Shown: positions 15,569 through 20,840 of the stretch, piece after piece | Layout of the letters: each line of letters starts with the position of its first letter | How positions within the stretch are numbered: the stretch's first letter is position 1 | NCBI GenBank assembly: GCA_026388545.1 | Contig: JAPLJS010000024.1 | Coordinates: 1-35,179, forward strand | DNA from: Deltaproteobacteria bacterium | GTDB lineage: Bacteria > Desulfobacterota > Syntrophia > Syntrophales > UBA2185 | DNA: 35,179 bases | Direction: 5' to 3' | Translations under genes and position numbers: made by a program | The notes under the pieces: model-generated | What the model saw: only the letters and a program-made list of their open reading frames with translations | Told to the model about the DNA's origin: nothing | Databases searched by the model: none

Positions 15569-17442
15569 CTACATGAAATCATAGAATAAGGAAATGTATT
15601 TTAGCTGCTCTTCCTCCTGCAATGCCTTTTTATTATCGATAGCCTTATAAATATCAATTAATTTCATCCGGGGTATTCTCTGACCGGAATTGATTTCGAG
15701 TGACCTTTCATATGCCTGAATAGCTTTTTCCCTTTGCCTCAGATACAGCAACAAATCCCCCAGGAGTTCGTACTTGGCGGCTGCTGTAAAGGAATCATCA
15801 GGGATCTTATCAAGATAAACGTTTCCCATTTGGATATTCCCTTTTGAGTAATATTTCTCTGCCAGGGCGAGGTTGGCAAAAGACGAAAAGGGTTTATTCA
15901 TGTCCGATGATCTCTTCCAGTAGGGAATGGCTTCATTTTCAAAACCTTTTGAATCAAGAATGATGGCATGGGTGTTATAGTAAGCAGTCACATCATCGGT
16001 TGCCTTTACGGGAATGAATTCAATAATCAAAAATGCCATGATGATTGCACACGATATGCCCGCCTGCCGGTATAATCTCTTCTTAAAAAATGAAAAAAGA
16101 TTACTGATACCAATGGCGGCAAAGGGGATCATGATTACCAGCAAGGGAAGCCTGTATCTTGCGTTTGTGTAAAAGACAATCAGTGTCAATCCATACAGAC
16201 CGGAAATGGTACCGAGAGCCCATGCCTTTCTGTAATGAAGACTGTATGCAATACCTGCCATGCCAAGGGGAAGGATACACCAGAAGTTGAAAAAGGGAAG
16301 TTTGAAAAATGCCACAAAATTACTGACAAAGGGGATGTGGTAATGGTCACAGGCCTCGAATTGATTAAACAGGACGAGCGTCTTCTGCCATAATTTCCAG
16401 CCAAATGCAACAGGATATTCCATTGCCGTGTTAACGACTTCTCTTGTCCAGTAGTGAGAAGCCTCTACGGGGGAAAGCCTTTCCTTCGTCCTTTTGCCCG
16501 CTTCTATGGTAAACTGGACCCCCTGCTCAAAAGGTGATGATGACGCAAAGGGTACAGGCCGGTAATAAGGGTCAGGATTCCGCAGGTTGTTACCGAGGTA
16601 AAGATTGAAACCGGCCTGAGATGTTGTCAGGGTGAATTCCCCGGCGATCCTGTAGTTTCGGATCATGAATGGCGATAAAGCGACAGCCATGCCTGCGATA
16701 TAGATGGCTAGGCTGACAATGAGCAGCTTCTGAGAATTTCTGTCCCTGTAGAAATTCCATAGAATGATCAGGGGCATCACCGGAATGATCAAAATGGCAT
16801 TTGGCCGGACGTTTAGCAACAGCCCGGCGGAGAGACCAAGGATGCCAACTTTCATCAGTAACTTTTTGTTAAACCCCTCTTTTTCTTCTAAAAAGGAATG
16901 TGAAAGAGTATTGTTGAGAACTGACACAAATAGCCATACCATGAGAGCAAACAAGAAAACTTCGAGAGATGTCTTCAACGGGACGATACTGTAGAAAATA
17001 AAGGCTTGTAGAGGCAGGCGATCAGGCAGGATGCAAGGCCGATTGTCCGGTTTACCAATTCCTTACCGATGAGATAGATAAGCCAGCAGGTCAGAACCCC
17101 GAGGATGATATTCATTACCCTGACATAGAAGGCATCCGGTGATAACAACTTGTAGATCAGTGCCGTGATATACGCGGGGAGGGAGGGGAATTCATAGACC
17201 GATGTGGATGTAAACGTTCCATCGGCGATCCTTCTGGCCCATTCGTGATAGATTCTTTCATCCCATAAAAGGAAATAAAAATAGACGCTTCCTTTCAGGT
17301 CAACGAGGGCGACAATTCTTAAGATAAGGGCAAGGAAGAGGAAGGCGGATACAAATAAATGGGCGTATTGATCAGCGAAGGAAGCAATCCCGGTGGATGC
17401 TTTAATGTTATCGATACTCTGTCTGCGTTTTTTTCTTGCCAT
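15569..17442 (-). pseudogene. Membrane GT39/PMT-like glycosyltransferase with C-terminal TPR, one frameshift
   Basis: Two overlapping frames make one gene. The N-terminal part (17442 down to about 17015) has several membrane helices and the LLWDERIYHEWA loop with the acidic pair typical of GT-C/PMT transferases. The rest (down to 15569) has further membrane helices, a periplasmic loop and a C-terminal TPR region (residues ~520-600). The frames join at about 17019-17024 if one G is restored in TACAAGCC (to TACAAGGCC), giving L-Y-K-A-F-I-F-Y. With that base the gene is 625 codons, a usual family length. GT39-like enzymes transfer sugars from polyprenyl phosphates in the inner membrane. The GT2 gene nearby could supply such a donor. 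The start is the ATG at 17442. Confidence 0.78.
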
Positions 17443-17482
17443 CAATCATCAGATGGGAATCGTAGAAAAGTTCACTGAATTG

Positions 17483-17516
17483 CAACAAAAGGGGGACTAT
17501 TGTCCCCCCTTTGTTG
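17483..17516 (-). terminator. Intrinsic terminator after the FecR-domain gene
   Basis: A 15-bp stem with one mismatch (17483-17497 with 17502-17516) around a four-base loop has a GGGGGAC/GTCCCCC core and an A/T-rich base. On the minus strand the core is followed by TTTTG. It sits 20 bases after the FecR-gene stop and separates that operon from the glycosyltransferase. It could work in both directions. Confidence 0.85.
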
Positions 17517-17536: not shown

Positions 17537-19246
17537 CTATTTAGTCCCCTGGAAGATTCCGTGGGCCTTACCACCTTCGCCATACATATTCCATCTCCCC
17601 CCGATGGCCTCGCCGTTTTTTCCATACACTGAACCGGAAGCTGATCCCGAGGCGCCAGAGGTCCCGTCGAGTGTCCATGTACCGCCGGTGTTAAGGTTGA
17701 AATGGCTTGTATTTCCGGAGAAAGAACCTGTCTCATTCGCAATAGAGGCACCATGCCCCCCTCCTGAAACAGAGAGGTTGAAATTGGATATACTCGGGCT
17801 TACGAAATTAACGCTGCAACTGAACGTTCCATTCATATCTGCGCCCCCTGATGAGGTCCAGTAGGTACCGTGGGCATTGCCGGAATACGTCGCGGAAAGG
17901 CCGATACCCTTCAGACTGGCCATCTGGGGATTCGTAGTGACATCCCCCCAGATGTAGTAGCCTTTATTGTCAAAGTAGTAATAGTAAGGGCTTATATTCA
18001 CCGCCGTCGGCTGTGTCCACTGACCCCACTCGGTGTAGGCATTGTAGCCCAGTTCCGTTTTATTGATACCGTTAGATATTGCTCCGGAGGAAGTTTCGTA
18101 TATCGTTAGATTAGTAATACTTGGTGAATTAGTGGTGAAGTTTTGCACAGTCATATTATCTGAAGCCCCACCGACCGTTACTGACGCCGCTGTATCAAAA
18201 TTTTGGCGGTCGGATGAGGAAATGATATCATGCAGGTAATTCCCACCATATCCATAATTATACGTAACCAGGCCTGTCACATAGCCCACGTGCGTAGCGG
18301 GACGTGAGATAGTAAGGTTATTGGTGTTTTGATTCTGCGTGATACTGCTGGTGTCGATTGTCCCTGTTCCTATGCCATTACCGGTCCCCGTTCCTCCGGC
18401 TCCTCCGGTATCACCGGGGGTTGACCCTTCCGTACCCGCCTGGAAGCCCTGGGCCACACCGGGCGGTGTCGTAAATGAGCCGCCCAAACCGGCGCCCCCG
18501 GCGTTTAAACCCTGACCTTCGCCCAACGGCGTCGTCTGTCCTGTTATCGGTGAGGTCACCTGGATCTGTCCCTCAAAACAGTATACGTTTGTCTGATAAT
18601 TCGGCTGGTTTGCCTGTGCCAGTTGACGAAATCCCGTATCCGATACGTCCGCTACGATGATCGGCAATGAGGCCGTCGGCTTTCCTTCCAGTTCAATAAC
18701 CTCCACACCGAATTTGGTTCCCCTCACGCCGCATACAGCGGTCGGCGTTTCAACATTCATGGTGGAGCCCTTGTATTTAAACAGGCGCAACGAGTAATAC
18801 ATGGCTTTCCCCCTTACCATGTTGAACGTAGCGCTCTTTGTCTTCGCTATCCGGTTGTCGATAAATGATTTAATACCAACCTTCGCATTTTCGCCCATGG
18901 TAACAACATCTTCACCGTTGAGCCTGAACCGGCACCGGGAGGACTTCAAGGTGCAGACGACATCCTTTTCAAAGAGCTTGTCTCCCGGGGCGGCATAATA
19001 AGCTTGGCTCATATCTCCGCGGGCCACAACGACATGACCGACTACCGTGCGAATAAATCCTACTTCCTTTCCGGGAAAGCCGACGAAATAATCCCGTATG
19101 GTGACGTTTTTCAACTCTTCAGGGAGCTTCGCTTTCGATACCGCCCTGCCCCTGTTTGTGGCGGCATCTCCCGTGTAATTCAGGATCAACAATCCCATAG
19201 AGAAGAGTGTCAGGAAAAGAAACATTAACAATAGATGACGTTTCAT
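17537..19246 (-). CDS. Secreted FecR-domain protein with TbpB-like C-terminal beta-barrel (putative Slam/T11SS cargo)
   Basis: The 569-residue protein starts with a hydrophobic signal sequence (residues 4-22) without an evident lipobox cysteine. A FecR domain covers about 60-200: GHVVVARGD, then the NVETPTAVCGVRGTKFGV signature at ~164-181. A glycine/proline-rich linker (~245-310) follows. The C-terminal part is rich in Gly, Ser, Asn and Tyr, with alternating beta-strands. Its last 120 residues (GLSATYSGNAHGTYW, MNGTFSCSVNF, then GSVYGKNGEAIGG and a final GIFQG) resemble the eight-stranded TbpB-type barrel. In Slam-exported proteins that barrel is the recognition handle. The gene lies 18 bases after a Slam-like translocon, has an AGGAGG site before its ATG, and is followed by a strong terminator. 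The FecR call is firm; the barrel homology is by eye. Confidence 0.85.
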   Translation of the reverse strand: MKRHLLLMFLFLTLFSMGLLILNYTGDAATNRGRAVSKAKLPEELKNVTIRDYFVGFPGKEVGFIRTVVGHVVVARGDMSQAYYAAPGDKLFEKDVVCTLKSSRCRFRLNGEDVVTMGENAKVGIKSFIDNRIAKTKSATFNMVRGKAMYYSLRLFKYKGSTMNVETPTAVCGVRGTKFGVEVIELEGKPTASLPIIVADVSDTGFRQLAQANQPNYQTNVYCFEGQIQVTSPITGQTTPLGEGQGLNAGGAGLGGSFTTPPGVAQGFQAGTEGSTPGDTGGAGGTGTGNGIGTGTIDTSSITQNQNTNNLTISRPATHVGYVTGLVTYNYGYGGNYLHDIISSSDRQNFDTAASVTVGGASDNMTVQNFTTNSPSITNLTIYETSSGAISNGINKTELGYNAYTEWGQWTQPTAVNISPYYYYFDNKGYYIWGDVTTNPQMASLKGIGLSATYSGNAHGTYWTSSGGADMNGTFSCSVNFVSPSISNFNLSVSGGGHGASIANETGSFSGNTSHFNLNTGGTWTLDGTSGASGSASGSVYGKNGEAIGGRWNMYGEGGKAHGIFQGTK

Positions 19247-19264
19247 CGAGTCCTCCTGATATGG

Positions 19265-20711
19265 TTAGAAATAACATCCAAGACTTACAGTGTACGTTTT
19301 CTTGTCGAACGTGTACAGTTCCGTATTGGAATAATTGTCTATGTAATTAAACGCAACCGACGCGAAAAAGTATTTGTAAAACCCCTGGCTGAGCACCGCG
19401 GTGACGCTGTGTCGCCTGTCGATGCGATCTTCATTATAGAGCAGAGGTTTCGCCTTATAGTCTTTCTCTGCCCACTGGTATCTCAGGAAGACTTCAGTGT
19501 TCGTGGGAAATCTCACAAAGTAGGAGATACCGTAGAACGGGCTTTCATAGGTAAATCTTCTCTCCCGGGCATCGATATTTTCATATCCCGCGGTCAAGGA
19601 AATAATATGCTGCCGGTTGAAGAAATAGAAATTAGGGCCTATCTCATAACGCCTCGTTGTGTTGTCCAGGGCATTGTTGGTATCATCAACGAAACCTTCC
19701 TTGCTGTAAGTAAAGGCGCCTCTCAGGCTGAAAAACTGACTGAAGAAGTGTTCGTAGTTCGGATTGACATGGAAAATATAAGAAAGGCGCTCGCTCCCGA
19801 AATCCTGCAGTGCGTATCCGACGGGAACTTTAATGATGTCTTGACGACCCACCCACCAAGGGCCGGTATTTATGTCCGTCATAAGGTAGTTGAACTTGCC
19901 GTGATAAAAGTAGGCGCTGTTATAGAATTCGAGCGCAGTGTTCCACATGAGTCCCTGTTTGTCACCAATATCGTAGAGTACGTTGGCGCCGAAGTTTGTG
20001 ATCGATGCCGTCTTAATTTTTTTGATTCTTCGTCGAGGGTCAGCGTTCCACCCGATACGGCAAGATCCTTCTTGTCGGGCCCGGCGCTTATATTGGTGTC
20101 CCATTGAATGCCCTGGGAAAAACGGACATTCCAGAAGATTTTCCGGGTGCTCTCTTCAATGGCGGCAAGCAGCCGGTCAATATTCTTTTTTACCTCCTCA
20201 GGCGGACGGGCAGCCCTTACCGTTTCCAACTCGCGTTTGGCTTCCTCGTGACGGCCCAGCTCAAAATAGGTTGCGGCAAGTTCCAGGCGGACTCTGTGCA
20301 ACTGGGGATCAATTACGAGCATCTTTTTAAATTTTTCGACGGCTGTTCGGATCTGCCCGGATTTCATGGCGCTCGTACCAATCCACCACATGACGTCCAT
20401 CGTTTCCACCTTAGAAGCGATTTCATTAAAGATCGGAAGGCCTGGCCAAACTTGCCGTCATAATACAGCGTCAAAGCCTCGGCGAGCTTAGTATCCAGGG
20501 TTTCTATTTCTGCGGGCGTCATCCATTGAAGTATTGCGTCAGCTTCTTTATTTCCCTGCTTGAATTCGGTATCGCCGGTTGATTCAGCCGCTCTCTGTGC
20601 TAAAAAAAGCACTTTAGAGGATTGAGAATAGGCGGGCGAACTAACAAAAAGACTGAAAATGAGATAAAGGACAATTACCCAGCAGAGCCGATACCTGATA
20701 AGCATTAACAT
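19265..20711 (-). pseudogene. Slam-like (DUF560) TPR and outer-membrane beta-barrel translocon, two frameshifts
   Basis: Three consecutive frames encode one protein: signal peptide (residues 1-30) and first TPR (20711 to ~20435), more TPRs (KFKKMLVIDPQ, ELAATYFELGRHEEAKRELE; ~20435 to ~20020), and a beta-barrel (to 19265) with alternating aromatic strands and a C-terminal Phe, the usual outer-membrane assembly signal. The frames join if one base is restored at each of two homopolymers: GGG for GG at ~20435-20436 (giving A-F-P-I-F-N-E-I) and eight T for seven at 20017-20023 (plus strand). The restored length is 483 codons, in the usual Slam range. Periplasmic TPR plus 14-strand barrel is the Slam layout, and the partner gene looks like a Slam cargo. 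A generic TPR-porin is the alternative. Confidence 0.75.
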
Positions 20712-20811: not shown

Positions 20812-20840
20812 TCTATACAATTTATTCCAATGCTCGTCAA
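20812..20840 (-). promoter_or_regulatory. Sigma70-type promoter of the Slam-like/FecR operon
   Basis: On the minus strand TTGACG (20840-20835) and TATAGA (20817-20812) have an ideal 17-base spacer. Transcription would start near 20805, giving a leader of about 95 bases before the ATG at 20711, which has GAAAGGAT as ribosome-binding site. I see no Fur-box or riboswitch in the leader. Confidence 0.7.

Follow-up and report, generated by a model that had tools for sequence, protein, structure and literature searches.

Two genes lie one behind the other on the minus strand of the window, by which we mean the whole analyzed stretch of 35,179 nucleotides from a syntrophic deltaproteobacterium. In the direction of transcription, the order is a Slam-family translocon gene (20711-19265), an 18-base gap, a gene for its candidate cargo (19246-17537), and a terminator hairpin (17491-17509). 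The features are as follows.

19268..20711, minus strand: Slam / T11SS outer-membrane translocon gene (SlipAM, DUF560), stop codon at 19265-19267; from tblastn, Pfam, and profile A5
20439..20711, minus strand: Slam piece 1, signal peptide and first helical part; from the open reading frame and relatives, profile match at 20436-20690
20011..20442, minus strand: Slam piece 2, periplasmic TPRs and start of the barrel; TPR_19 at 40.9 bits, TPR_Slam at 34.1 bits, frame taken from relatives
19268..20014, minus strand: Slam piece 3, outer-membrane beta-barrel ending in Phe; SlipAM at 26.1 bits, cut-off 22
19247..19264, minus strand: intergenic gap of 18 bases with AGGAGG at 19252-19257; from the sequence
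17540..19246, minus strand: FecR-lobe cargo gene, 569 aa, stop codon at 17537-17539; from the intact frame, FecR match, and relatives
19160..19246, minus strand: putative signal peptide, residues 1-29; read by eye, helix 2-22 in the model
18422..19078, minus strand: FecR passenger domain, residues 57-275; Pfam match at 96-182, PupR match
18290..18421, minus strand: Gly/Ser/Thr-rich linker, residues 276-319; pLDDT <50 at residues 279-316
17540..18289, minus strand: TbpB-like lobe, residues 320-569, a handle and then an eight-stranded barrel; from profile, model, and fold matches
17540-17896, minus strand: barrel within the lobe, about residues 451-569; model strands 451-568
17491..17509, minus strand: terminator hairpin 3' of the cargo gene; from the terminator scan

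The original prediction, made without database searches, had described this arrangement as an operon with its own promoter and a strong terminator. The 18-base gap is where it was placed and contains an AGGAGG ribosome-binding site, the second gene at 17537-19246 is an intact frame of 569 aa, and the terminator expected near 17483-17516 was recovered as a strong hairpin before T-rich tails. The promoter proposed at 20812-20840 fared less well: it is absent from the list produced by the scan, and the window holds 4 promoter-like sites against a chance mean of 4.9.

One frame suffices for the cargo gene, and for each of about a dozen neighbors having relatives for comparison. Whole neighbors include purD, purH, purE, a Sua5/YrdC gene, and a phosphoribosyltransferase gene, and several of these genes also adjoin the Slam-cargo pair in related MAGs (L047, L048, L052, and L071). 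A PMT-type glycosyltransferase gene at 15569-17445 (minus strand) appears to be split into two overlapping frames, the first of 156 aa with PMT_2 and the second of 469 aa ending with TPR. Among the neighboring genes identified, no TonB receptor or haem gene adjoins the pair, and none near the cargo gene encodes a sigma factor.

The translocon gene and its reading frames

The upstream gene had been read as encoding periplasmic TPRs followed by an outer-membrane barrel ending in Phe. This layout stood, including a signal peptide and the C-terminus ...TYTVSLGCYF; what did not stand was a single open frame, as there are three. A need for frame correction had been allowed for, and alignment to relatives locates two breaks. 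Every intact relative of 470-500 aa maps onto the gene by tblastn as three segments, each abutting the next but in a different frame; the frame changes near 20440 and again near 20010, and no coding sequence is missing at the joints. One of the changes adjoins a run of seven A, no in-frame stop occurs inside any of the three pieces, and identity to relatives reaches about 68%.

Membership of the Slam family is clear from the computed matches. Profile A5 scores 401, 262, and 55 bits on the gene; within the pieces, SlipAM scores 26.1 bits against the Pfam cut-off of 22, and TPR_Slam scores 34.1 bits, just under its cut-off of 35.2. All 11 intact relatives (470-504 aa) carry TPR_Slam and 10 of them SlipAM. 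The comparison with Slam families that had been recommended for the upstream protein thus gave matches above or near the cut-offs, and not porins alone. The model of one relative, L080 (pLDDT 87), places TPR helices at residues 52-190; the strands that come after them number about 14, as counted by eye from DSSP. This matches the layout given for Slam1, a TPR part followed by a 14-strand barrel (PMC5449769).

TPRs followed by a barrel are a common layout, and the solved structures nearest to the L080 model (Foldseek against the PDB) are BcsC and PelB. Both points would suit a polysaccharide-export protein of the BcsC, PelB, or PgaA type that has nothing to do with its FecR neighbor, a reading that we consider highly improbable. 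A sequence search of the PDB for Slam gave TPR proteins only. In the 11 relatives, the families assigned by Pfam are SlipAM and TPR_Slam, and a barrel of the BcsC or PgaA type is named in none. The strand number of about 14 also speaks against such a porin, as do the near-perfect pairing with a TbpB-like lobe described hereunder and the fact that no glycan synthesis genes were seen pairing with the translocon. We disfavor the porin identity since the sequence families separate Slam from BcsC/PelB despite the similar fold layout.

The two frame changes may reflect either an assembly error or a recent pseudogene, and the sequence is compatible with both. Relatives of the gene in Syntrophales-type MAGs are intact. 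This genome has no second SlipAM gene elsewhere, and the frame-broken Slam is its only copy; unless sequencing mistakes account for the breaks, the pair may therefore not function in this strain. Another reading is that the locus is the decaying remnant of a former Slam system, with a translocon that in this lineage has truly become a pseudogene and a cargo that is now idle. Two frame changes in one gene and the apparently split glycosyltransferase next door are in its favor, but the cargo is intact, the Slam pieces are stop-free and up to about 68% identical to relatives, one break lies beside a homopolymer typical of sequence error, and other genes in the window are whole. On balance, we regard decay as rather unlikely. 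In another genome, at L192:6002-7337 (minus strand), another Slam gene lies in two frames beside an intact cargo.

The candidate cargo: FecR domain and TbpB-like lobe

The cargo begins with a hydrophobic core followed by small residues, with no lipobox Cys; judged by eye from the sequence, it and its relatives appear to have a Sec-type N-terminus. The relatives, which are 30-50% identical to it, share its plan of signal peptide, FecR domain, low-complexity linker, and one or two units of ~245 residues, as in known Slam cargos, TbpB included, which carry one or two lobes (PMC5449769). From 25 alignment rows, AlphaFold modeled the window cargo at an average pLDDT of 79, and at about 89-97 in the blocks that begin with residue 430.

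The front part has the FecR fold. Pfam scores FecR at 34.3 bits over residues 96-182, and the corresponding part of the model matches PupR (6ovk) with Z 15.8 over residues 92-275 (VIA-align), as well as another anti-sigma periplasmic domain (Foldseek/VIA-align). The FecR domain comes after the signal peptide, and the window cargo contains neither a cytoplasmic anti-sigma part nor a transmembrane anchor. As there is also no sigma-factor gene among the identified neighbors, we rejected the identity of an anti-sigma regulator. We likewise set aside an iron or haem function, the default suggested by the name FecR, given that no TonB receptor or haem gene was seen among the identified neighbors of the pair.

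The last ~120 residues of this secreted protein had been likened to a TbpB-type barrel, with a recommendation to compare residues 320-569 with such barrels, and here the expectation was borne out. Residues 320-569 are modeled as a TbpB-like handle and an eight-stranded barrel, the latter with strands at 451-568. Against all PDB sequences, a profile of 23 lobe units found TbpB (4.3e-7), NHBA, LbpB, and little else, and aligned the TbpB C-lobe of 3pqu and 4o3w over nearly the whole unit; a reversed control with six units gave nothing below 0.06 and no TbpB. In structure, the best match to the lobe model is NHBA (6cuj, Z 16.6 by VIA-align). The TbpB C-lobe (5kkx) gives Z 15.1 over 195 residues spanning 317-569 (VIA-align) and fHbp a Z of about 13, and HpuA and hemophilin are among the Foldseek matches.

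Pfam finds TbpB_B_D in 5 of 10 cargo relatives, and FecR and TbpB_B_D both exceed their cut-offs within one chain in the divergent loci L183, L188, L192, and L193. In the window cargo itself, TbpB_B_D gives no match even at E 10. Please note that its probable link to TbpB is accordingly drawn through relatives, profile, and model.

Gene pairing, passenger exchange, and the proposed export route

A first contig search with the window cargo alone as the query returned nothing, and the alignment query returned 23 loci. The named relatives are Deltaproteobacteria, Syntrophaceae, and Syntrophales MAGs. Among 155 genomes of the class, this type of Slam occurs in 15 and the lobe in 18, with both present in 15 of 15 Slam genomes (hypergeometric p about 3e-18, with shared descent ignored); in the three lobe-only genomes, the matches are fragments at contig ends. 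A phylum sample of 395 genomes gave a Slam match in 14 of the 17 lobe genomes (p 4e-19, shared descent again ignored) at a cut-off of E 1e-20 or better, which excluded weak TPR-only matches at E near 1e-5, seen in most of 228 genomes.

The original prediction had called for a survey of this FecR gene next to DUF560 genes, and the result is tight pairing. Counting the window, 33 lobe genes have upstream sequence, and 30 of them lie directly 3' of Slam on the same strand. Of the remaining three, one has Slam just downstream, one shares its Slam with a first cargo, and one has the Slam of its genome on another contig.

Other arrangements occur. At L090:902-9756 (plus strand), one Slam gene is accompanied by a pair of FecR-lobe cargos, the latter of them lying 5.7 kb downstream. 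Other SlipAM genes in the class (L068, L069, L073, L074, and L076) adjoin lobe-less FecR-type proteins of 330 aa or about 1900 aa, FecR being scored by Pfam in L068, L073, and L074 only; the occurrence of FecR next to Slam is therefore wider than that of the lobe. SlipAM-like barrel genes at L072 and L075 sit in apparent capsule or exopolysaccharide clusters; next to each is a gene for a small secreted protein, and these two proteins (about 190-210 aa) have a sequence pattern in common. On plasmids, nothing matched the lobe; the matches were confined to the N-terminal region of a divergent cargo, which includes FecR. Viral structures yielded FecR proteins from uncultured phages and nothing else.

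We conclude that the locus is probably a type XI secretion pair whose FecR cargo is exported by way of its TbpB-like lobe, which was the overall reading of the original prediction and is supported by the Slam families, the lobe model, the profile, and the pairing. The cargo would be made with a cleavable Sec signal, cross the inner membrane, and be kept unfolded in the periplasm by an OmpH/Skp-type holdase, a gene for which is present in this genome. The TPR part of Slam would recognize the C-terminal lobe, the cargo would pass through the Slam barrel, and the lobe would fold outside, bringing FecR to the cell surface or into the medium as a non-lipidated protein. In published systems, Skp holds the cargo unfolded in the periplasm, a C-terminal motif or barrel is recognized, and Slam moves the cargo out (PMC9090332, PMC5449769). 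That FecR might bind a ligand or surface outside the cell is our guess, and there is no pointer to iron.

The lobe unit is constant across cargos and the front part varies: it is FecR in most and other sequence in L195. The protein at L044:6243-8372 (minus strand) joins the lobe to a TPR/CsgG front with a possible lipoprotein signal and no FecR, in a genome that additionally carries a FecR-type pair, and the one at L085:7284-9647 (plus strand) has an OmpA domain, FecR, and TbpB_B_D in one chain. Exchange of the passenger with retention of the lobe, as in L044 and L085, fits the role of a targeting domain for the lobe.

Divergent Desulfobacterota offer a different perspective. CHASE2 domains are sensors that sit on the outer side of the inner membrane. 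In L183, L185, L186, L188, and L190-L193, the genes run in a row as Slam, FecR-TbpB_B_D cargo, and CHASE2-adenylate cyclase (L190 begins inside the cargo, so that cargo and cyclase alone are visible), and at L187:1909-5598 (minus strand), FecR, CHASE2, and adenylate cyclase are fused in one chain directly behind a Slam-family gene. Operons of other bacteria encode LysM-FecR proteins with CHASE2 kinases (PMC5192318). Taken together, the rows, the fusion, and these operons suggest that FecR may remain in the periplasm while the lobe exits; the OmpA fusion in L085 and the cyclase fusion in L187 likewise make a periplasmic FecR possible, which would limit export to the lobe.

Carried over to the window, Slam would export the lobe alone, the linker, disordered in the model, would lie through or at the channel, and FecR would signal from the periplasm to a partner in the inner membrane, for instance a CHASE2 cyclase. 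We think this unlikely. To our knowledge, export of the known T11SS cargos involves the entire protein. The window cargo is without a membrane anchor, and no CHASE2 gene adjoins the pair in the window's clade. Both CHASE2 genes of this genome are on other contigs than the window, and no FecR gene is evident beside the one whose surroundings were read most fully. It also seems improbable to us that Slam in the wider Desulfobacterota family builds an envelope-spanning sensor, with the lobe outside and a periplasmic FecR signaling to the CHASE2 cyclase or another partner. If it did, a secretion system would double as the outer half of a signaling chain.

Relation to known systems

Our preferred reading, export of the FecR cargo through Slam, would make the pair a variant of a known system: apparently a new cargo class, TbpB-like lobe plus FecR, in anaerobes not known as host-associated. 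The literature searched, mostly open-access, yielded no paper in which DUF560 and FecR appear together, and the main text of two T11SS surveys contains no mention of FecR. Published T11SS work concerns the host-associated cluster 1 and the marine cluster 3, and no protein has been characterized in the remaining clusters, whose members come mostly from organisms of water and soil (PMC8406197); cluster 3 is rarely found with a recognizable barrel cargo (PMC12282271). The pair is predicted to represent an environmental, anaerobic Slam branch with a clear cognate cargo, whose passengers are exchangeable and whose TbpB-type targeting lobe, present once or twice, is conserved. This supports the idea that the lobe may serve as a transferable export signal that predates the piracy of host metals, and it provides a way to test the role of FecR when not an anti-sigma factor.

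The FecR/PupR periplasmic domain shares its fold with residues 92-275 of the window cargo (Z 15.8), but the cargo lacks the cytoplasmic anti-sigma part and transmembrane anchor, and has no identified sigma-factor gene nearby. The LysM-FecR operon (PMC5192318) resembles the divergent Slam loci in placing a FecR protein beside a CHASE2 receptor; it has neither Slam nor a TbpB lobe, and its receptor is a kinase where the Slam loci have a cyclase. The C-terminal barrel of NHBA (GNA2132) is the best structural match to the window barrel (Z 16.6), although NHBA is a meningococcal lipoprotein without FecR.

In the Slam1-TbpB and Slam2-HpuA pairs of Neisseria (T11SS cluster 1A), a TPR and 14-strand barrel protein is likewise encoded beside a handle-barrel cargo of one or two lobes, the C-terminal lobe having the TbpB fold. 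In contrast to these, the window cargo has no lipobox, its passenger is FecR and not a transferrin or haemoglobin binder, the hosts are anaerobic and environmental, and no TonB receptor is among the identified neighbors. HrpB-HrpC with hemophilin (T11SS cluster 1B, PMC8406197) also combines a Slam-family protein with a cargo that has a single C-terminal TbpB-type barrel, and that cargo is soluble with a Sec signal, as predicted for the window cargo; but hemophilin binds haem, is without FecR, and belongs to host-associated gammaproteobacteria. In having no lipobox, the window cargo is more like hemophilin, a soluble type (PMC8406197), than like TbpB, which is lipidated.
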